Made by a program: the position numbers and the translations under genes. Shown piece after piece: positions 11,183-53,403 of a stretch of 55,887 nt of DNA (position 1 is the stretch's first letter; each line of letters starts with the position of its first letter). The stretch is from an archaeon. GTDB lineage: Archaea > Thermoproteota > Nitrososphaeria > Nitrososphaerales > Gagatemarchaeaceae. The stretch lies in NCBI GenBank assembly GCA_021800855.1, contig JAJYYP010000004.1, positions 7,309 through 63,195 of the forward strand, in the 5' to 3' direction. The notes below the pieces were generated by a model, which was not told where the DNA came from, ran no database searches, and saw only the letters and a list, made by a program, of their open reading frames with translations.

Positions 11183-11722
11183 TTGACGGCTAGCCAGCTC
11201 GACCGACTCCATTGTGAGCGATTCGCCGTCGAAGCCACTTTCGCCGGGAGGGCATACATCGCTCTCTTCCTATCTCTTTCGATATCCATCTCGGCGCTCT
11301 ACCTGTTCCTCCTCCCCTCGCTCCCGCTCGGGGCGCTCGTGCCCTATGCGATCCGGTTCATAACCCCAGTCCAGGCGGCTTTCGCTCTGGTCTTTGGCGT
11401 CCTACTGAGCCTGGTCGTCACGCTGAACGTCTACGCGTTCAGGATGCGCGCATCCTCCGTCAAGGGCGTCACCGCAGGGTCGATCATCGCCAGCCTGGTG
11501 AACGGGCTCTGCTGCACCCCGCTGATACCTAGCCTCATAGCCATGACCGGGGCTTCGACGCCTGTCCTCTACGAGATATCCCCTCGGCTCCAGGCCTTCT
11601 TCGAGCTCAACTCGCAGTACTTCTACGCTCTCTCTGTCGCGCTCCTGCTCATCTCGGTCCACTACCTGAGCCGGAGCATCACCGCCTGCTGCGGCGTGCG
11701 GAAGGGGGAAACGTCGCAGTGA
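11183..11722 (+). CDS. Membrane protein with paired cysteines, metal-cluster context
   Basis: 179 residues from a TTG at 11183, with GGAGGT about 9 nt upstream. Four to five hydrophobic segments: near residues 25-50, 60-85, 95-115, 118-130 and 145-165. A CC pair followed by proline, GLCCTPLIPSL, lies in a hydrophobic segment, and a second pair, ACCGV, lies near the cytoplasmic end. The same layout of an in-membrane CC plus a terminal CC occurs in the preceding small protein, which suggests the two hand a thiophilic ion between them. The next gene overlaps its stop as GTGA. No named family is recognised. Confidence 0.65.
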   Translation: MTASQLDRLHCERFAVEATFAGRAYIALFLSLSISISALYLFLLPSLPLGALVPYAIRFITPVQAAFALVFGVLLSLVVTLNVYAFRMRASSVKGVTAGSIIASLVNGLCCTPLIPSLIAMTGASTPVLYEISPRLQAFFELNSQYFYALSVALLLISVHYLSRSITACCGVRKGETSQ

Positions 11723-15900: not shown

Positions 15901-16263
15901 CTCAGGGACGTCGCCGGGATGCTCCGCTCCTTCCACTACGCGGCCGTCTCCAACCTCTTCGCTAACGGGGGTTCAAGGCAGTACGCACAGCACCCGAAGA
16001 TCTGGGAGTGGGCCAAGGCCTGGTACCTCGCGGTCGCCTCGTCGTTCCTCGAGGCCTACCTTGGCGAGCTCGGCGGGAGCAGGCTCGCTCCATCGGACGA
16101 CAAGGCCATCGAGGCGATGCTGGGCGCTTACCTTCTCGAAAAGGCGCTCTATGAGCTCTTGTACGAGCTCAACTCCAGGCCGGACTGGGTCGGGGTCCCC
16201 ATGGTCGGGATAGAAGAAGTGCTGGGGAATAAGACACCCTCTCCGCCCAGTCCAGGGCCTTGA
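12913..16263 (+). CDS. treS: Trehalose synthase-maltokinase fusion
   Basis: About 1116 residues; an in-frame ATG at 12892 is an alternative start. The first about 550 residues are a GH13 trehalose synthase that interconverts maltose and trehalose: YRDAVIYEVHVKAF, the nucleophile region GLRLDAVPYLYE, the acid LLAEANQWP and the third acid FLRNHDELTLEM. From about residue 590 a maltokinase follows (ATP plus maltose to maltose 1-phosphate). It has the C-terminal kinase-like motifs CRIHGDYHLGQVLF and FVIVDYEGEPARPL and a following RSPLRDVAGMLRSF. Fused TreS-Mak proteins feed GlgE, which is also in this cluster. GlgX starts within its stop codon (TTGA), so the first three genes are translationally coupled. 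Confidence 0.93.
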   Translation: MGRGEGVLESTWYRDAVIYEVHVKAFRDSASDGIGDIRGLTSKLDYLRDLGVTAVWLLPFYPSPLRDDGYDISDYHGVYKAYGDMADFRNFLQEAHMRGIRVITELVINHTSDRHDWFQRARRAPPGSREREFYVWTEDPKKYSEARVIFKDSETSNWTWDPVAKAYYWHRFYSHQPDLNFDSPDVQKAVIDVMDFWLKLGVDGLRLDAVPYLYEREGTNCENLPETHGFLKKMRAHMDSKFKGRMLLAEANQWPSDAARYFGDGDECNMAFHFPLMPRMFMAIQMEDRFPIVDILEETPPIPEGCQWGIFLRNHDELTLEMVTDEERDYMYRAYAHDKQARLNLGIRRRLAPLLGNDRRKIELMNILLFTLPGTPVIYYGDEIGMGDNIYLGDRNGVRTPMQWNADMNAGFSRTNPQRLYLPVVIEPRFHYEVVNVENQEADLSSLLWWFRRVIYMRKQHRAFGRGSIEFVRAESEKVLAFVRRYENESMLVVANLSRKPQCVDLDLGAFEGDRPTEVMGGSAFPDVGKVPYRLTLGAYGYYVFSLAEKARPADAPAEQAVQLEVQRGEGELFWGRHKRTMETSVLPALFSGARWFGGKARRIDSVTIRDAVEIRQGQNYWLAEVLVDIVYSEGPPETYSVPLGLMPDDEFSKLPEHVRPRAIARVLSKDGGGTLFDAGSHPEFASALMHGLYVKRAANGASGRFAFVPGPTLRKAVPVPPAPSEFRPLGAEQSNNSFVAGEGVVLKLLRRVEEGVQPEVELGGFLTARGFPYTPAFLGHVEYQQEDRDPVVVAVAESFVRNEGDAWKLFTTHFEDFAEKASQGQYGALLDALAPSGSIVQLARGRSLDKLFEVTGPLFRDNVRLLGKRTAEFHKALASDQGDPDFAPEPFGYLGLTSLAQSMLSAAHRSVQTLSRAKLSDPVLAGRLSALLSRKEEVFLTFEKIRTLRTDALRCRIHGDYHLGQVLFTGKDFVIVDYEGEPARPLGERRLKRSPLRDVAGMLRSFHYAAVSNLFANGGSRQYAQHPKIWEWAKAWYLAVASSFLEAYLGELGGSRLAPSDDKAIEAMLGAYLLEKALYELLYELNSRPDWVGVPMVGIEEVLGNKTPSPPSPGP

Positions 16264-18341
16264 CTGAGAACTATGGCCTCCCCGACCTCGGTGCGACCTG
16301 GGACGGGGCAGGGACAGAGTTCGCCGTCTACTCCGCCGAAGCGACCTCGGTGGACGTGCTCCTCTTCGACTCCCCACGGGCGACTCCGAAGGAGAGGCTC
16401 CCCCTCGCCCGCGCGGGGGGGTTCATATGGAGGGGGAGGGCTCCAGGGGTGGGTCCGGGTCAGCTCTATGCGCTCTCCGTCGACGGTCCCTACAACCCTG
16501 CCAAAGGGCACAGGTTCAACAAGAACAAGGCGCTCCTCGACCCCTACGCCAGGGCCGTCGCCGGTCCGCTGAGATGGGACGACTCTCTCTTCGGATACCA
16601 GCTCGAGGACCCCCAGGGCGGGTCGTCCTTCGATACCAGAGACTCCTCGCCCTTCGTGCTCAAAGGGGTGGTCGTCGACCCATCTTACGATTGGGAGGGC
16701 GACAGGCTCCCCCGGACGCCGTGGAGGGACACGGTGATCTACGAGGCGCACGCGAAGGGGTACACCAAACTCAAAGAAGACGTCGATGCGGCGAAGAGAG
16801 GGACCTACTCGGGGTTGTCGTCCCCGGGGACCGTCGCCCACCTGAAGGATCTGGGCGTCACAGCCGTGGAGCTCCTCCCGGTCCACCAGCACGTCGACAA
16901 CAGGTTCTTGGTGGAGAGGGGGCTCACAAACTACTGGGGGTACAACACCCTCGGGTTCTTCGCCCCCGACGCGCGCTACGCAAGGCCAGGGGTACCCGGC
17001 GGGGAGGTGGAAGAGTTCAAGTCAATGGTGAAGGAGCTCCACTCCGCGGGGATAGAGGTCGTCCTCGACGTGGTCTACAACCACACGGCAGAGGGGAACC
17101 AGTTTGGCCCGACGCTGAGTTTCAGGGGGCTGGACAACAGGGCATACTACAAGCTGCAGAAGAACCACTCTGCTGCCTACACAGACTTCACCGGGACCGG
17201 GAACACCCTGAACACCGGGCACCCCTTCGTAGTGAAGATGATAATGGACAGCCTCAGATACTGGGCCCTGGACGCCCACGTCGACGGTTTCAGGTTCGAC
17301 CTCGCCCCCGTCCTCGCCCGCCCCGACCACGAAATAGACCTGTTCAGCCCGCTCCTCCAGGCGATACACCAGGACCCCGTCCTTTCCAAGCGCAAGCTGA
17401 TAGCAGAACCTTGGGACCTCGGCAGGGGAGGGGACCTACAGGGGATGTTCCCGCCGCCCTGGTCGGAGTGGAACGGGAGGTTCAGGGACACCGCCAGGGG
17501 CTACTGGAGAGGGGACCACGTCCCCCTGGCCGAGGTGGCGACGAGGCTCGCGGGCTCCAGCGACCTCTACACGAGAGGTGACCGCGGGCCGACGGCAGGG
17601 GTGACCTTCGTCACTTGCCACGACGGCTTCACCCTGAGAGACCTGCTTAGCTACAACGAGAAGCACAACGAGGCGAACGGCGAGGAGAACCGAGACGGAT
17701 GGTCGAACAACCTCTCTTGGAACTGCGGGGTGGAAGGGCCGACGTCGGACCCGACTGTCGTAGCAATGAGGCGGAGGCAGTCGATGAACATGCTCGGGAC
17801 GCTCCTCCTCTCCCAGGGCGTCCCCATGATCCTCGGGGGAGACGAGTTCGGGAGGACCCAGGGAGGGAACAACAACGCCTACTGCCAGGACAACGAGACG
17901 AGCTGGGTGGACTGGAGAGAGGGTTCCATGGACCTTGCGCTCACACGGTTCGCGAAGCGCGCGGCTGAGATACGACGGAGCAGCCCCATCTTCAGGAGGG
18001 AAGAGTTCTTCAGGGGCGCCCATAACGGTGACGGACGGAAGGACATCGCCTGGCTCAGGCCCGACGGGCGCGAGATGACGACGGATGACTGGCACGGCAC
18101 AAGGGAGCGCGCCGTCGGAATGCTGCTCGCCGAAGACCCCCCGTCTACCCGTGACTTCCTCATGGTCCTGAACGGGTCCCCGGGGGACGTTGCCTTCTCG
18201 CTCCCGCCCAGGGGGGGCGGGTGGGAAGTCATCCTCGACACGTCGGTCCCTGTCGGCTTCCCGTCCGAGCCGCGGTTCGTGGATGGCGACGCAGTCGTCT
18301 ACGGGAGGTCGCTCCAGCTATTCCGGAGTTCCCAGAGATGA
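16260..18341 (+). CDS. glgX: Glycogen debranching enzyme GlgX/TreX
   Basis: 693 residues from a TTG that overlaps the treS stop (TTGA). This GH13 isoamylase-type enzyme hydrolyses alpha-1,6 branches of glycogen. An N-terminal CBM48-like domain (GATWDGAGTEFAVYSAEAT) comes before the barrel. Catalytic regions are VDGFRFDLAPVLAR (nucleophile Asp), LIAEPWDLG (acid Glu) and FVTCHDGFTLRDL (third Asp). YNEKHNEANGEENRDG is typical of the isoamylase/GlgX subfamily. Its products are linear malto-oligosaccharides, the substrates of TreY, which is encoded next and overlaps by ATGA. Length is normal and no residue is missing. Confidence 0.94.
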   Translation: MTENYGLPDLGATWDGAGTEFAVYSAEATSVDVLLFDSPRATPKERLPLARAGGFIWRGRAPGVGPGQLYALSVDGPYNPAKGHRFNKNKALLDPYARAVAGPLRWDDSLFGYQLEDPQGGSSFDTRDSSPFVLKGVVVDPSYDWEGDRLPRTPWRDTVIYEAHAKGYTKLKEDVDAAKRGTYSGLSSPGTVAHLKDLGVTAVELLPVHQHVDNRFLVERGLTNYWGYNTLGFFAPDARYARPGVPGGEVEEFKSMVKELHSAGIEVVLDVVYNHTAEGNQFGPTLSFRGLDNRAYYKLQKNHSAAYTDFTGTGNTLNTGHPFVVKMIMDSLRYWALDAHVDGFRFDLAPVLARPDHEIDLFSPLLQAIHQDPVLSKRKLIAEPWDLGRGGDLQGMFPPPWSEWNGRFRDTARGYWRGDHVPLAEVATRLAGSSDLYTRGDRGPTAGVTFVTCHDGFTLRDLLSYNEKHNEANGEENRDGWSNNLSWNCGVEGPTSDPTVVAMRRRQSMNMLGTLLLSQGVPMILGGDEFGRTQGGNNNAYCQDNETSWVDWREGSMDLALTRFAKRAAEIRRSSPIFRREEFFRGAHNGDGRKDIAWLRPDGREMTTDDWHGTRERAVGMLLAEDPPSTRDFLMVLNGSPGDVAFSLPPRGGGWEVILDTSVPVGFPSEPRFVDGDAVVYGRSLQLFRSSQR

Positions 18342-47946: not shown

Positions 47947-49002
47947 TCACTTCTTCATCTTGGCGTAGGCGACGATGCTGAGCATCCCTGCGACCTTGAA
48001 TGCCAGCTCCTTGTAGACCATCGCCTCCTGTGAGTCAGGCTTCGAGTGGGTCACCGGGTCCCCCCTGTCGGTCTGCTCCCTGACCGAGACGGCAAGGGGT
48101 ATTTCTCCGAGGTAGTCGACCCCTCTCTCGGCCGCCATCCTCCTCCCGCCCCCGCCGGAGAATATCTCCGTCTTCTCCCCGCAGTGAGGGCAGACGAAGT
48201 AGCTCATGTTCTCCACCACACCGAGTATAGGCGCGTCCAGCCGCTTGAACATGGCGAGCGCCTTGGCCGCGATGCTGAGGGCTGCGTCCTGGGGGGTGGT
48301 GACTATCAGGATCCCGCCGAGGGGGACTGTCTGCGCTAGGGTGAGGCTGGCGTCGCCGGTCCCCGGCGGGAGGTCTGTGACAAGGTAATCGAGTTCCCCC
48401 CAGTCCACCTGGGTCAGCAGCTGCCTGACCGCCCCGGCCACGAGGGGGCCCCTCCATATCACCGGTGTCTCCTCGTTGTAGAAGAACCCCAGGGACGCCA
48501 CCTTCACCCCATGGGCCACGGGGGGGACCACCCTCTCGTCCCTGACCTCGGGCCTCGACTTCACCCCCATCATGAGGGGGATGCTGGGGCCGTAGACGTC
48601 CGCGTCGAGCAATCCTACCTTCGCACCGGAAGCGGCCAGCGCGCAGGCAAGATTGACGGCCACCGTAGACTTCCCCACCCCGCCTTTCCCGCTTGCCACT
48701 GCGATTATGTTCTTGACCCCCTTCAGCACCTCCGCCTGAGCGTAGTCTCTGGTGGCGTAGACGCTCGACCCTGTCTTCATCTCCACCTCGCTCACCCCTG
48801 GTATCCTCTCCACCGCCCCCCTGGCCGCCTCCTCCATCCTAGTGCGGAGGGGGCAGGCTGGGGTGGTCAGGTTCAGGGTGAACGTGACCTTCCCCCCTGA
48901 GACCGAGACACCGTCGACCATGTGGAGGGAGACCAGGTCTCTCCCCAGCTCCGGGTCTTTGACCTCCGACAGCGCCCTGAATACCTCCTCCTTGTCTACC
49001 AA
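47947..49002 (-). CDS. Mrp/NBP35-type iron-sulfur carrier ATPase with MIP18 domain
   Basis: 351 residues from a TTG at 49002. The N-terminal MIP18/DUF59 domain (VFRALSEVKDPELGRDLVSL to about residue 90) precedes the P-loop ATPase: SGKGGVGKSTVAVNLA (deviant Walker A with two Lys), LLDADVYGPSIP, and DYLVTDLPPGTGDASLTLAQ. The cluster-binding CPHCGEKTEIFSGGG is near residue 275. It assembles or carries Fe-S clusters to target proteins. A minus-strand ATTTAAGG box is centred 27-28 nt before the TTG, so the mRNA is leaderless, and it is divergent from cofE, whose own TATA box lies 20-25 nt away. Confidence 0.94.
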   Translation of the reverse strand: MVDKEEVFRALSEVKDPELGRDLVSLHMVDGVSVSGGKVTFTLNLTTPACPLRTRMEEAARGAVERIPGVSEVEMKTGSSVYATRDYAQAEVLKGVKNIIAVASGKGGVGKSTVAVNLACALAASGAKVGLLDADVYGPSIPLMMGVKSRPEVRDERVVPPVAHGVKVASLGFFYNEETPVIWRGPLVAGAVRQLLTQVDWGELDYLVTDLPPGTGDASLTLAQTVPLGGILIVTTPQDAALSIAAKALAMFKRLDAPILGVVENMSYFVCPHCGEKTEIFSGGGGRRMAAERGVDYLGEIPLAVSVREQTDRGDPVTHSKPDSQEAMVYKELAFKVAGMLSIVAYAKMKK

Positions 49003-49027
49003 ACTGAGAGGAGCTTAGGCCGGGCCC

Positions 49028-49058
49028 TTAAATCCCCTCCCCCGGCAGAGTCTTTATC
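49028..49058. promoter_or_regulatory. Back-to-back TATA boxes of mrp and the cof operon
   Basis: TTAAAT (49028-49033) serves mrp on the minus strand and CTTTATC (49052-49058) serves cofE on the plus strand. Both are about 27 nt from their start codons, so both genes are probably leaderless. The 80-nt intergenic region holds no clear extra operator. Confidence 0.6.
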
Positions 49059-49082
49059 GCACCCGCGGGGGGGCCGCGCGAA

Positions 49083-49832
49083 ATGAGCGTCATGGAGGTC
49101 TTCCCGGTCCGAGGGCTCCCCGAGGTCAAGCCGGGGGATGACATAGGCAGGCTAATCTTGGCGGCCTTGCGCAGAGGTCGCCTCCGCCTAAAGGACGGGG
49201 ACGTCGTCGTGGTCAAGCAGAAGGTTGTCTCCAAGGCCGAAGGCCGCCTCGTCAGGCTCGCGGACGTCGTCCCAGGCCCCCGGGCTGAGAGGCTCGCGAA
49301 GTCCCAGATGAAGGACCCGCGTCTGGTCGCGCTCATCCTGCGAGAGGCTGTTAGGGTCGTCAGAGCAGCGCACGGCGTTATCATAACGGAGACCAGGCAC
49401 GGCTTCGTCTGCGCGAACTCGGGGATAGACCAGTCCAATGTGGGGAAGGGGGTGGCCGCCCTCCTCCCCTTGGACCCTGACAGGAGCGCAAGGGGTGTCA
49501 GGGCCGCGCTCGAGAGGTCGACGGGGGCGCGGCTGGCCGTCGTGGTCACTGACACGTTCGGGCGCCCCTGGCGGGTAGGCCAGACAGACGTCGCGATTGG
49601 GTGCTCAGGGATCGAGCCCCTCATCCGCTACGCCGGGAAGACAGACAGGTTCGGCTACAAGCTGAGGGTGACCCAGCCGGCTGTGGTGGATGAGATCGCG
49701 GGGGCGGCGGAGCTTGTCCTTGGGAAGCTGAGCGGGATCCCGGTCGCCGTGGTCAGGGGCGCGAGCTACTCCAGGGGGGAGAGCGGGGCGAAGCAGCTAG
49801 TGATGCCGAGAGAGAGGGACCTGTTCAGGTGA
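49083..49832 (+). CDS. cofE: Coenzyme F420:L-glutamate ligase CofE
   Basis: 249 residues from an ATG at 49083, leaderless by TATA spacing. CofE adds gamma-linked glutamates to F420-0 using GTP. Family features: FPVRGLPEVKPGDDIGRLI, DVVVVKQKVVSKAEGR, HGVIITETRHGFVCANSGIDQSN, VTDTFGRPWRVGQTDVAIGCSGI, and RGASYSRGESGAKQLVMPRERDLFR. The protein is of archaeal stand-alone length without the bacterial FbiB nitroreductase domain. cofD follows after 4 nt, so cofE, cofD and cofC are one operon for the last steps of F420 synthesis. Confidence 0.95.
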   Translation: MSVMEVFPVRGLPEVKPGDDIGRLILAALRRGRLRLKDGDVVVVKQKVVSKAEGRLVRLADVVPGPRAERLAKSQMKDPRLVALILREAVRVVRAAHGVIITETRHGFVCANSGIDQSNVGKGVAALLPLDPDRSARGVRAALERSTGARLAVVVTDTFGRPWRVGQTDVAIGCSGIEPLIRYAGKTDRFGYKLRVTQPAVVDEIAGAAELVLGKLSGIPVAVVRGASYSRGESGAKQLVMPRERDLFR

Positions 49833-49836
49833 GCCC

Positions 49837-50748
49837 ATGAGGGCCGTGCTCTTGGCCGGAGGGACTGGCTCCTCCAAGCTCCTCCGCGGGGTCCAGGCGC
49901 TTGGCGTCGACATGACCGTCGTCGCCAACGTCGGGGACAACGCATGGGTCTACGGGGTGTATGTCTGCCCCGACGTCGACATCGCTTGCTACGCCCTCGC
50001 CGGGATATCAGACCGAGCGAAGGGTTGGGGGATTCGCGGGGACTCCTTCCAGACGCTCAGCCAGCTGGCCCGGGTCGGCGTCGAGACGTGGTTCAGGCTC
50101 GGGGACAGAGACCTCGCCAACTGCCTGGCCAGGACACAGATGCTCAGGGAAGGGCGCACCCTCACCGAGGCGACCGAGGTACTCGCAGACAGGCTCGGGG
50201 TTGGGTGCGCCGTCCTACCCGCCTGCGACGAGCCTGTCCAGACCGTTGTCTCCACCCCCCGCGGAGAGCTCGGCCTCCAAGAGTTCTGGGTGAGGGAGAA
50301 GGGGCGCCCCCGCGTCCTTGGGGTGAGGTACGCTGGAGCGGACCGAGCCCGCCCTCCGGCCGGGATCAGAGAAGCCGTAAGGTTGGCTGACGTGGTGGTT
50401 GTCTGCCCAGCCAACCCGGTCACAAGCATCGGCCCGACGCTGGCGATTCCAGGTTACTCTCGGCTGCTGAGGTCCGCGCGGAGGGTGGTCGCGCTCTCCC
50501 CTATGGTCGGGGATTGCCCTTTCAGCGGCCCTGCCGGGAAGCTGATGCGGGCCACCGGGGTCCAGCCCAGCTCCCTGGGAGTGGCGAAGCTCTACTCAGG
50601 GTTCGCCGACGTCCTGGTGATAGCGGGCGAGGACAGTGGGATGGTCCCGGAGATACGCCGGTTGGGGCTCGACTGTGTCACCGCGGACACCAGGATGGGC
50701 GGCCCGTCGGACGAGGTCAGGGTCGCCAGGGAGGTGCTGTCCGTCTGA
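49837..50748 (+). CDS. cofD: 2-phospho-L-lactate transferase CofD
   Basis: 303 residues. CofD joins the activated phospholactyl (or related) group to FO to make F420-0. The nucleotide-binding start LLAGGTGSSKLLRGVQAL, the conserved VVANVGDNAWVYGVYVCPDVDIACYALAG, WFRLGDRDLANCLARTQMLREG, VVVCPANPVTSIGPTLAIPG, ALSPMVGDCPFSGPAGKLM and DTRMGGPSDEVRVAREVL are all as in the family. Its TGA (50746-50748) overlaps the CTG that appears to start cofC (CTGA), and its last codons carry the GGAGGTG that would serve as cofC's ribosome-binding site. Confidence 0.96.
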   Translation: MRAVLLAGGTGSSKLLRGVQALGVDMTVVANVGDNAWVYGVYVCPDVDIACYALAGISDRAKGWGIRGDSFQTLSQLARVGVETWFRLGDRDLANCLARTQMLREGRTLTEATEVLADRLGVGCAVLPACDEPVQTVVSTPRGELGLQEFWVREKGRPRVLGVRYAGADRARPPAGIREAVRLADVVVVCPANPVTSIGPTLAIPGYSRLLRSARRVVALSPMVGDCPFSGPAGKLMRATGVQPSSLGVAKLYSGFADVLVIAGEDSGMVPEIRRLGLDCVTADTRMGGPSDEVRVAREVLSV

Positions 50749-51374
50749 AACGCCTGGTAGTAGTGATACCCGTGAAGTCATCAGGGGGAAAGTCCAGGCT
50801 CGCCGGGCTCCTGTCGCAGGCGCAGAGGGAAGAGTTCTCCAAGATGCTGCTTGAAGACGTCCTGGACGCGGTGGCAGGGGCAGGCCTCGTGGCGAGCTGC
50901 TTCGTCGTCTCCTCGGACCGCGAGATACTCGAGCTTGCGGCGAGGCGCGGGGCGCGCGGGGTCCCTGAGGAGAGGGACTCGGGGGTGAACGACGCCGTGG
51001 AGGCGGGTGCCCGGGCGAGCGGGGCTGAGTTGGTCCTGGTCCTCCCCTCGGACCTCCCGCTCATGAGCTCGGCGGACGTCCGCGCCCTCACAGCCCTCGC
51101 GGACGGAGGGTTGGACGTCGTCGTGACCCCGTCGGTCGCCTTCGACGGGACCAACGCACTTCTCTACCCTGCCGGCGCGGGATTCCAGCTGAGCTATGAC
51201 CACAACAGCTTTTGGAATCACCTCGCCTCGGCGGCCGGGATGGGGATGTCCGTCGGAGTCAGCACCCGGCCGGGGATAATGCTCGACATAGACTCACCTG
51301 ACGACTTCAGGGAGCTGGCTTCGTCCGGCTCAGCCAGCAGGGCGGCTCGGTTCTCGAGGAGGGAGATGGTCTGA
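50745..51374 (+). CDS. cofC: 2-phospho-L-lactate guanylyltransferase CofC, apparent CTG start
   Basis: 209 residues from CTG at 50745, giving (M)KRLVVVIPVKSSGGKSRLAG, the exact N-terminus expected of CofC. The next in-frame GTG (VIPVK) would cut into the first strand of the nucleotidyltransferase fold, and upstream in-frame starts lie far inside cofD. GGAGGTG (50730-50736) is 8 nt before the CTG, and the CTGA overlaps the cofD stop. CofC activates 2-phospholactate (or phosphoenolpyruvate) with GTP for CofD. Further landmarks are EERDSGVNDAVEAGARAS, LVLVLPSDLPLMSSADV, FDGTNALLYPAG and GIMLDIDSPDDF. Length is normal. Confidence 0.92.
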   Translation: MKRLVVVIPVKSSGGKSRLAGLLSQAQREEFSKMLLEDVLDAVAGAGLVASCFVVSSDREILELAARRGARGVPEERDSGVNDAVEAGARASGAELVLVLPSDLPLMSSADVRALTALADGGLDVVVTPSVAFDGTNALLYPAGAGFQLSYDHNSFWNHLASAAGMGMSVGVSTRPGIMLDIDSPDDFRELASSGSASRAARFSRREMV

Positions 51375-52900
51375 AGGGGCTCCTCCTGAAGAACTGCACC
51401 TTCCTCGGCTCCTCGGCCGGGGGGGTATACTGCGAAGGAGGGCGCATCGCGCGCATCTATCAGGGAGGGGAGCCCGTGGTCCGCGCCGATACCGCCGTGG
51501 TCGACGCCGGCGGAGGGACCGTCCTCCAAGGGCTGATAGACACCCACTGCCACCCCTTCGAATACGCGTGGCTGAAGAACAACCTCGATCTCCGCGGGAC
51601 AAGCAACGTCGTCGCGTTCCGTCTCCGCATACAAGCCGGGGTCCTCAGAGCGAGACCCGGGGAGTGGGTGGTAGGGCTGGGTTGGGATCAGGAGGCCTTC
51701 CCAGACAGGCGGATGCCCACGAAGGATGACATCGACGGCGTCTCCCCGGCCAACCCTGTGCTGGTGACCAGGGTCTGCGGCCACATAGGTTTGGTCAACA
51801 GCGTGGCCATCAGCCGCCTCGGCCTGGGGTCGAGGGCCGGACCCCTGTTCGAGCGAGACCAGGCCGGGGAGCTGACCGGGATAGTGAAGGAGGGGGCGTT
51901 GACCGAGGTCTGGGCTAGCATCCCCCGGACCACCGAGGGGCTCGCTGCCGGCCTTCAGGTGGTCGAGTCCGAGGGGGCCCGGCTTGGGCTCACGGCCCTG
52001 CACACCATAGTCTCCCCCGACGGATTTCGCGAAGAGCTCGCAGCACTGGCGCTCCTCGCCTCTGAGGGGAGGCTGGCGTTGAGTCATAGGGTCTATGTCC
52101 CGCCCGACTCCCTCGAGTTCCTGGAGGAGCGGAAGCTCCGGTTGAAACTGGCCGGCCCCAGAGCGAGGCTGAACGGGGTCAAGATATTCACCGACGGGTC
52201 ACTGGGCGCCAGGACTGCCGCCCTGCGTGAGCCCTACGCGGACGACCCTTCAAACTCTGGGCTCCTGGCGTACGGCGACGACGAGCTGACCGCCCTTGTG
52301 GAGAAGGTCGACTCCATGGGGATGCAGGCCATAGTCCACGCCATAGGGGACAGGGCAGTCGAGCAGGCCATCGGAGCGCTCTCCAATGTGACCGGGGCGA
52401 CCAACCCCAAGAGGCACAGGATTGAGCATGCAGGCCTCCTCCCACGAGACCTACGGTCTCAGATGGCCAGACACGGCATCAGGGCGGCTGTCCAGCCGTG
52501 CTTCGTGACGTCCGACACTTGGGCGGTGGAGAGGCTGGGAGAGGAGAGGATACGCGACCTCTACCCTTTCAGGTCTATGCTGAGCGAGGGGCTGGTCGCG
52601 TCCGGGGGCTCTGACTGCCCGGTGGAGTCGTTGAGCCCCGTGCTCGGGGTCTGGGCGGCAATGACCAGGGGAGGGATAGTCCCGGAAGAGGCCGTCGAGA
52701 TGGACGATGCCCTGAAGATGTACACCTCGATGGCCGCGTCCAACGGGCTCGACGAACGCCGCTTCGTCGAGGGCGCCCCGGCTGACTTGACCCTCCTCGA
52801 CTCCGCCGTGGCGGGGATGCACCCGGCGCTCTTCAGGAAGGTGAAACCCCTCGCCACGGTGGTGGAGGGGACGCCGGTCCACTCCTACGGCTTGGACTGA
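51371..52900 (+). CDS. Amidohydrolase-family protein (YtcJ-like), apparent CTG start
   Basis: About 509 residues from CTG at 51371, in a second CTGA overlap. GGAGG (51358-51362) is 8 nt upstream. There is no ATG, GTG or TTG in frame between the upstream stop and GTG 51476. That GTG would delete the N-terminal beta-sandwich strands LLLKNCTFLGSSAGGVYCEGGRI that this family needs. The barrel has GLIDTHCHPFEYAW (metal-binding HxH), KIFTDGSLGARTAAL (Lys), AIVHAIGDRAVEQA, RHRIEHAGLL and ASGGSDCPVESLSP. This is an YtcJ-like metal-dependent amide/ester hydrolase. The substrate is unknown. Its place in the F420 operon is suggestive. Confidence 0.85.
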   Translation: MKGLLLKNCTFLGSSAGGVYCEGGRIARIYQGGEPVVRADTAVVDAGGGTVLQGLIDTHCHPFEYAWLKNNLDLRGTSNVVAFRLRIQAGVLRARPGEWVVGLGWDQEAFPDRRMPTKDDIDGVSPANPVLVTRVCGHIGLVNSVAISRLGLGSRAGPLFERDQAGELTGIVKEGALTEVWASIPRTTEGLAAGLQVVESEGARLGLTALHTIVSPDGFREELAALALLASEGRLALSHRVYVPPDSLEFLEERKLRLKLAGPRARLNGVKIFTDGSLGARTAALREPYADDPSNSGLLAYGDDELTALVEKVDSMGMQAIVHAIGDRAVEQAIGALSNVTGATNPKRHRIEHAGLLPRDLRSQMARHGIRAAVQPCFVTSDTWAVERLGEERIRDLYPFRSMLSEGLVASGGSDCPVESLSPVLGVWAAMTRGGIVPEEAVEMDDALKMYTSMAASNGLDERRFVEGAPADLTLLDSAVAGMHPALFRKVKPLATVVEGTPVHSYGLD

Positions 52901-53403
52901 GCCTTCCTGAACTCCCCTGATTTGCCGTCGTAACCAAGGAGATCTGCGTAGATCGCCCAGTGGATCAGGAGCGTCCTGACCAGAGCCTCGTTCAGGTCGG
53001 GCTTGTAGTGCCATTTCAGGCCTATCTCCGCAAGCGAATCGGCGATCTCTTGCGCTGTGACCGTCTTCTTTCTCGAAGCCAGGTCCAGGGCCGTGCGGAA
53101 GGGCTCTATGGTGGCGACCCTGTCTCTCAGCATCCTGACCTTGTTCCGCGTCGTCTTCTGGAACTTCAGGCCGAGGTCTGTCAGCAGCACGTCACCCTTC
53201 TCCGTCCTCACCAGCCCGAGCATCTCGGCTGTGTCCAAGATAGGGAGCAGGACCGCGATGTCGGCCCCTAGCTCGTCGGCGAGCTTCGGGACGTCGACCT
53301 TCCCCCCGATGCTCCCCGCTATCTCCACCAAGCTGATCACCTGGCCCGCTCTAACATTCCCTGGCATCATCAGCGCCGTCGGGAGCGGTCTCGTGTCGGC
53401 CAA
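52885..53403 (-). CDS. AAA-associated C-terminal domain protein (ABC transporter partner)
   Basis: 172 residues. The sequence MPGNVRAGQVISLVEIAGSIGGKVDVPKLADELGADIAVLLPILD, then LGLVRTEKGDVLLTDLGLKFQKT, matches the domain usually fused to the C-terminus of NitT/TauT-type ABC ATPases. Here it is a separate gene downstream of the ATPase (gap about 50 nt). It is a winged-helix-like helical domain, possibly regulatory: the second half ends EIGLKWHYKPDLNEALVRTL. Its 3' end overlaps the convergent amidohydrolase by 16 nt. Confidence 0.82.
   Translation of the reverse strand: MADTRPLPTALMMPGNVRAGQVISLVEIAGSIGGKVDVPKLADELGADIAVLLPILDTAEMLGLVRTEKGDVLLTDLGLKFQKTTRNKVRMLRDRVATIEPFRTALDLASRKKTVTAQEIADSLAEIGLKWHYKPDLNEALVRTLLIHWAIYADLLGYDGKSGEFRKAQSKP

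Follow-up and report, generated by a model that had tools for sequence, protein, structure and literature searches.

The stretch analysed here (the window) comprises 55,887 nucleotides (nt) from an archaeon of the Gagatemarchaeaceae (assembly GCA_021800855.1, contig JAJYYP010000004.1, positions 7,309 to 63,195) and carries an F420 operon in which two successive genes, cofC and an amidohydrolase gene, appear to start at CTG codons overlapping the stop codon of the preceding gene. Its guanine-plus-cytosine (GC) content is 63.6%, and it belongs to a 1.45 Mb draft genome of 109 contigs (G000). The features of the locus are the following:

49083..49832, + strand: cofE (F420-0:glutamate ligase), first gene of the operon (TIGR01916, 295.9 bits; PF01996)
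49837..50748, + strand: cofD (2-phospho-L-lactate transferase; TIGR01819, 313.6 bits), stop TGA at 50746-50748
50730..50736, + strand: Shine-Dalgarno (SD) sequence GGAGGTG of cofC, 8-nt gap to the CTG (from sequence)
50745..50748, + strand: CTGA overlap of the putative cofC start CTG and the cofD stop TGA (from sequence and relatives)
50745..51374, + strand: cofC (2-phospho-L-lactate guanylyltransferase), 209 residues when read from CTG (TIGR03552, 145.3 bits)
50763..50765, + strand: first downstream in-frame GTG of cofC (codon 7), a rival start (from sequence)
51357..51362, + strand: SD sequence AGGAGG of the amidohydrolase, 8-nt gap to the CTG (from sequence)
51371..51374, + strand: CTGA overlap of the putative amidohydrolase start CTG and the cofC stop TGA (from sequence and relatives)
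51371..52900, + strand: Amidohydro_3 metal-dependent hydrolase, 509 residues when read from CTG (PF07969, 262.8 bits, match from residue 43)
51476..51478, + strand: first canonical in-frame codon of the amidohydrolase, GTG (from sequence)

Both CTGA overlaps, and an SD sequence 8 nt ahead of each CTG, had been described in a first-pass annotation of the window and are confirmed at these positions. The 3' end of cofD reads GTC TGA (50743-50748), and the cofC frame runs from 50745 as CTG AAA CGC CTG GTA GTA GTG ATA CCC. The nearest canonical codons in this frame are a TTG at 50514, 77 codons upstream and within cofD, and the GTG at 50763. When cofC is read from the CTG, its residue 6 corresponds to position 2 of the TIGR03552 profile and is aligned to residue 6 of 2i5e. 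A start at the GTG would take away part of the first strand, which is complete in 2i5e and in all relatives, in agreement with the earlier claim that a canonical start truncates the structure. The second junction is similarly built: cofC ends with GTC TGA (51369-51374), and the amidohydrolase frame runs from 51371 as CTG AAG GGG CTC CTC CTG. This frame opens at 51302 and indeed contains no ATG, GTG or TTG until the GTG at 51476. A start there would cost 35 residues, and a comparison with homologues, which had been proposed as a check, revealed that this region is conserved, with 94% identity to G023 (JAKASL010000001.1, archaeon YP1.bin46, coverage 131x) across 33 positions. The closest solved structures of the amidohydrolase, 3icj and 3igh, align from residues 39-41.

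The same junctions were then read in relatives, the second of the proposed checks. CofC was compared in 30 relatives carrying it; 20 genomes belong to the same genus. In all 20, cofD ends in TGA and its junction with cofC is NTGA in the same register, N being C in six (G000, G023, G008, G029, G016 and G013), A in five (G009, G004, G017, G020 and G015) and T in nine, whereas N is G in G033, which represents another genus of the same family. The SD spacing is unchanged where CTG and ATG swap at these junctions; for cofC, relatives with ATG at the start carry the same GGAGGTG motif at the same distance.

The start column of the amidohydrolase, located 53 codons ahead of a conserved GLIDTH motif, holds CTG in the window, where relatives have TTG, ATG or GTG; in G009 and G004 an ATG start lies one codon later, as CTGATG. 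In G033 this column holds CTG, with GGAGGTG 8 nt ahead and no canonical codon until +37. G002 has ACG at the same place (ATG in G003 and G026, TTG in G025) and no canonical codon before +33. For G015, just ATC or TCG is available before the first canonical codon, which makes ATC (or TCG) a possible start. Since the window, G033, G002 and G015 are each devoid of a canonical option, four genomes lack a canonical amidohydrolase start. The G015 frame (L019) opens 7 codons ahead of a conserved CTC CTG ATC. Most of the genus, as well as G033, shows cofD, cofC and the amidohydrolase gene in the same succession and with overlapping junctions (L014/L018 and other cofC neighbours), which suggests a functional link between the amidohydrolase and the F420 operon.

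Two further genes, whose start codons were read in the relatives by pattern searches, provide longer series. The ribosomal protein uL15 starts with ATG in 10, TTG in 7, GTG in 5, CTG in 3 (G016, G010 and G002) and ACG in 3 (G027, G012 and G007) of 28 genus genomes. In G016, the next canonical codon of uL15 is found 13 codons downstream, within the conserved N-terminus. Outside the genus, only ATG, GTG or TTG occur in the 17 readable genomes of other genera and families (near-cognate starts 6/28 versus 0/17, P = 0.07). The gene of a THUMP-domain protein (PF02926) starts with ACG in 15, GTG in 5 and ATG in 2 of 22 genomes, with no T-initial codon at this position; the window's own genome belongs to the ACG group (G000:C20:86807-86842, outside the window). 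In the 15 ACG genomes this codon is never swapped for ACA, ACC or ACT, whereas the codon of an internal threonine 5 codons further on varies in the same genomes (ACT in 7, ACC in 4, ACG in 3 and ACA in 1), indicating that the start position is constrained as ACG and not as threonine. No canonical codon was found upstream of this ACG in G023, G009 or G016.

On a genome-wide scale, ortholog start columns were screened in five genomes for the codon standing opposite the canonical start of an ortholog without a canonical codon nearby. An initial list of 301 genes without canonical start contained many wrong-frame calls and was filtered before use. After the first filter, CTG occurred 12 times versus 1.0 expected (P 1e-10) and ACG 4 times versus 0.6 expected (P 3e-3); with a second filter the counts were 13 versus 1.4 for CTG and 7 versus 0.9 for ACG. 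Inositol-1-phosphate synthase (INO1) of G016, for instance, has a non-overlapping CTG start with a 7-nt SD, and CTG is also present in G013. Other clear CTG cases include a zinc-ribbon protein and a PIN protein (both with SD), an asparaginase-type protein, hemD and hemE, and clear ACG cases include a pilin-like protein, an ABC ATPase and two MFS transporters (8- and 6-nt SD). Several candidates were discarded. INO1 pattern matches beginning with GCG or GCA in G027 and G024 were not counted, as they probably correspond to a second-residue alanine behind an unread start, and RadB-like CTG columns were dropped as internal positions. The adenylosuccinate synthetase gene purA of G009 (C20, minus strand, -9624) appears to carry an indel or frameshift instead of an unusual start codon; its N-terminus lies in a frame without start, and shifting the frame by one base reveals a GTGA overlap.

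Stop/start overlaps were surveyed with our own dicodon gene finder in the window, 1.1 Mb of G023 and 0.9 Mb of G016, an SD match being at least 5 nt at a gap of 4-11. Over the window plus these 2.0 Mb, junctions of the NTGA register numbered 91 with A, 54 with G, 47 with T and 35 with C, plus 10 of the form CTGATG. An SD accompanied 29% of ATGA, 24% of GTGA, 26% of TTGA and 34% of CTGA junctions, that is, 12 of 35 CTGA junctions (CTGATG excluded) versus 51 of 192 for the three others together. Gene ends in CTGA outside such junctions had an SD in only 20 of 378 cases (5%; Fisher P = 1.4e-6). The window itself contains one overlap of each of the other kinds, as had been noted:

11719..11722, + strand: GTGA overlap (from sequence)
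16260..16263, + strand: TTGA overlap (from sequence)
18338..18341, + strand: ATGA overlap (from sequence)

The first-pass annotation proposed that CTGA completes this series by coupled re-initiation. The overlaps are real, and the proposal is supported with two refinements: CTG is also found outside overlaps, and ACG is used too. Coupling at the overlaps would be one setting among others. Indeed, uL15 of G016 and INO1 of G016 and G013 start at CTG without overlap, so that such starts do not require coupled re-initiation.

Collectively, the sequence itself, the conserved register, the exchange of ATG, GTG, TTG, CTG and ACG at one column and the lack of canonical alternatives make it very probable that translation in this archaeal genus truly starts at CUG and ACG in addition to AUG, GUG and UUG. 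For the two F420 junctions, CUG initiation, as first proposed, is the reading that fits best, since the start columns hold ATG, TTG or GTG in relatives at the same SD spacing. From these comparisons we infer initiation itself, methionine as first residue and stop-start coupling at these codons. Ribosomes finishing cofD (or cofC) could re-start, or new 30S subunits could land, on the CUG overlapping the UGA, with GGAGGTG or AGGAGG 8 nt upstream positioning the ribosome. In the P site, the ordinary CAU initiator tRNA would then form an imperfect pairing with CUG or ACG and insert methionine; SD pairing would assist initiation, as would the just-terminated ribosome at overlaps. Such starts may have arisen where a permissive initiation machinery was exposed to mutation pressure towards GC (UUG to CUG, AUG to ACG); in a GC-rich genome, T-to-C changes would yield CTG from TTG and ACG from ATG, which could explain why these two near-cognates dominate. 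Loss of aIF1 as a cause is not supported, since aIF1 was found in 54 of 61 genomes.

Several observations weigh against this interpretation. The whole case is one of comparative sequence, and all compared genomes are assemblies, mostly metagenome bins. In the second filter of the ortholog screen, ATA also reached 5 versus 0.7 expected, from internal hydrophobic positions; this filter thus admits noise, and its CTG count is partly noise. A scan of all genes for codons at SD spacing gave CTG 75 versus 67 expected and ACG 61 versus 42, and was set aside as too noisy for a decision. Many of the surveyed CTGA junctions resemble chance occurrences or lack an SD; several without SD are AT-rich after the stop and are probably not starts. 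As inspection attributes a good part of them to chance, the count of 35 is an upper bound. Finally, cofC does possess an available canonical codon, the GTG at codon 7.

Among other explanations, C-to-U editing of the mRNA at start codons would convert CTG to UUG and ACG to AUG, perhaps also GCG to GUG and TCG to UUG, after which initiation would be canonical. Editing of ACG start codons is established in plant plastids, and a single C-to-U change makes both CTG and ACG canonical, although both codons are near-cognates as well. GCG and TCG, in contrast, are not near-cognates of AUG. TCG is one candidate start of the G015 amidohydrolase, and a HerA-like gene of G016 (G016:C1:745112, minus strand, within L058) shows GCG with an SD where the window (W), G023, G009 and G004 have GTG; ahead of this GCG the frame offers no canonical codon, and the first one behind it is 20 codons away. 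Editing, however, predicts GCG and TCG equally, and neither is present among the start codons of uL15 in 28 genomes or of the THUMP gene in 22. Moreover, GCG shows no excess at ortholog start columns (3 versus 1.7 expected), and we know of no start-codon editing system of such kind in these archaea. We consider editing unlikely.

The true starts could also be the downstream canonical codons (GTG 50763 in cofC, GTG 51476 in the amidohydrolase), in which case the CTG would just be an overlap of the extended frame. GTG is a legal start, and the one in cofC would keep the IPVK motif. This codon, however, has no SD at proper spacing and falls inside the first strand, and the amidohydrolase would lose its conserved N-terminal region, ahead of which relatives start canonically. 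In uL15 of G016, such a start would lie 13 codons late. Downstream starts appear quite improbable. It is still less probable that these codons are read by a special initiator tRNA (e.g. with a CAG or CGU anticodon) or by some other altered factor. The apparent restriction of the uL15 trait to one genus speaks for such a change, as do aIF1 scores that are somewhat lower in the genus. On the other hand, a search for the initiator-type anticodon stem yielded no convincing variant but a normal CAU tRNA in G023, with tRNA coverage being incomplete; ARAGORN scans missed most archaeal tRNAs and were not used. The initiator tRNA-like sequence lies on the minus strand of G023, some 27.9 kb from the end of the 1.1 Mb analysed, and its CTCATAA anticodon loop is followed by an apparent intron. 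Lastly, a T or A misread as C in the draft assembly of the window has a negligible probability, being largely refuted by the recurrence of the cofC CTG in six separate genomes, one of them at 131x, and of the THUMP ACG in 15 genomes with differing neighbouring codons.

Near-cognate initiation at CUG and ACG occurs in eukaryotes. The CUG and ACG starts proposed here resemble it in using codons one base away from AUG, but they are archaeal and SD-led, with codons exchanged among the orthologs of one genus and no alternative isoforms. In archaea, termination-reinitiation coupling was described at ATGA/TGATG overlaps (Huber et al. 2019, PMC6728339), a paper whose text contains no mention of CTGA, GTGA or TTGA. 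The F420 junctions share with that system the 4-nt stop/start overlap and an SD within the upstream gene, whereas the putative restart codon is CTG instead of AUG (ATG in cofC of relatives such as G009 and G004) and CTG also starts non-overlapping genes. A 2020 review of initiation names AUG, GUG and UUG as archaeal start codons, with CUG and ACG unmentioned (PMC7531240); SD-led initiation and exchangeable codons at one column are features that our cases have in common with these canonical starts. Aside from this, a passage of PMC6237735 cites the aIF1 of S. solfataricus as destabilising complexes on non-AUG mRNA.

CTG was reported as the start of 5% of unannotated small open reading frames of M. 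mazei (PMC11456600), suspected for one Haloferax gene, HVO_1510 (PMC8305020), and listed among alternative sites in E. coli (PMC9825163). The codon is the same, and part of these reports include ribosome or peptide data, but they concern small reading frames, alternative sites and one doubtful gene, whereas our cases are conserved full-length genes, including that of a ribosomal protein, and extend to ACG. For ACG starts in archaea, nothing relevant was found in the open-access literature, although earlier reports may exist. CUG initiation was thus already known; the apparent novelty is that CUG and ACG would both be standing starts of conserved genes within a single archaeal genus. On these comparisons, the CTGA finding is a small part of what would be a larger trait.

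If this interpretation is true, a whole genus uses CUG and ACG as standing starts of conserved genes, uL15 among them, which bears on how strictly start codons are checked by the archaeal/eukaryotic-type initiation complex (aIF1, aIF1A, aIF2). The natural ortholog series, with ATG, GTG, TTG, CTG and ACG swapping at one column, would allow the study of start-codon strength and of the loss of stringency. Gene starts in these genomes would also be systematically misannotated, since gene finders restricted to ATG, GTG and TTG would truncate such proteins.

As to the surroundings of the locus, cofE, cofD and cofC all score above the NCBIfam cut-offs, and an Rfam scan of positions 49000-53000 gave no RNA element. 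The distribution of AmoA suggests that the order is Nitrososphaerales, that of the ammonia-oxidising archaea: archaeal AmoA is absent from G000, G016, G023, G033 and G036 and present in families f2, f8 and f10 of the same order.

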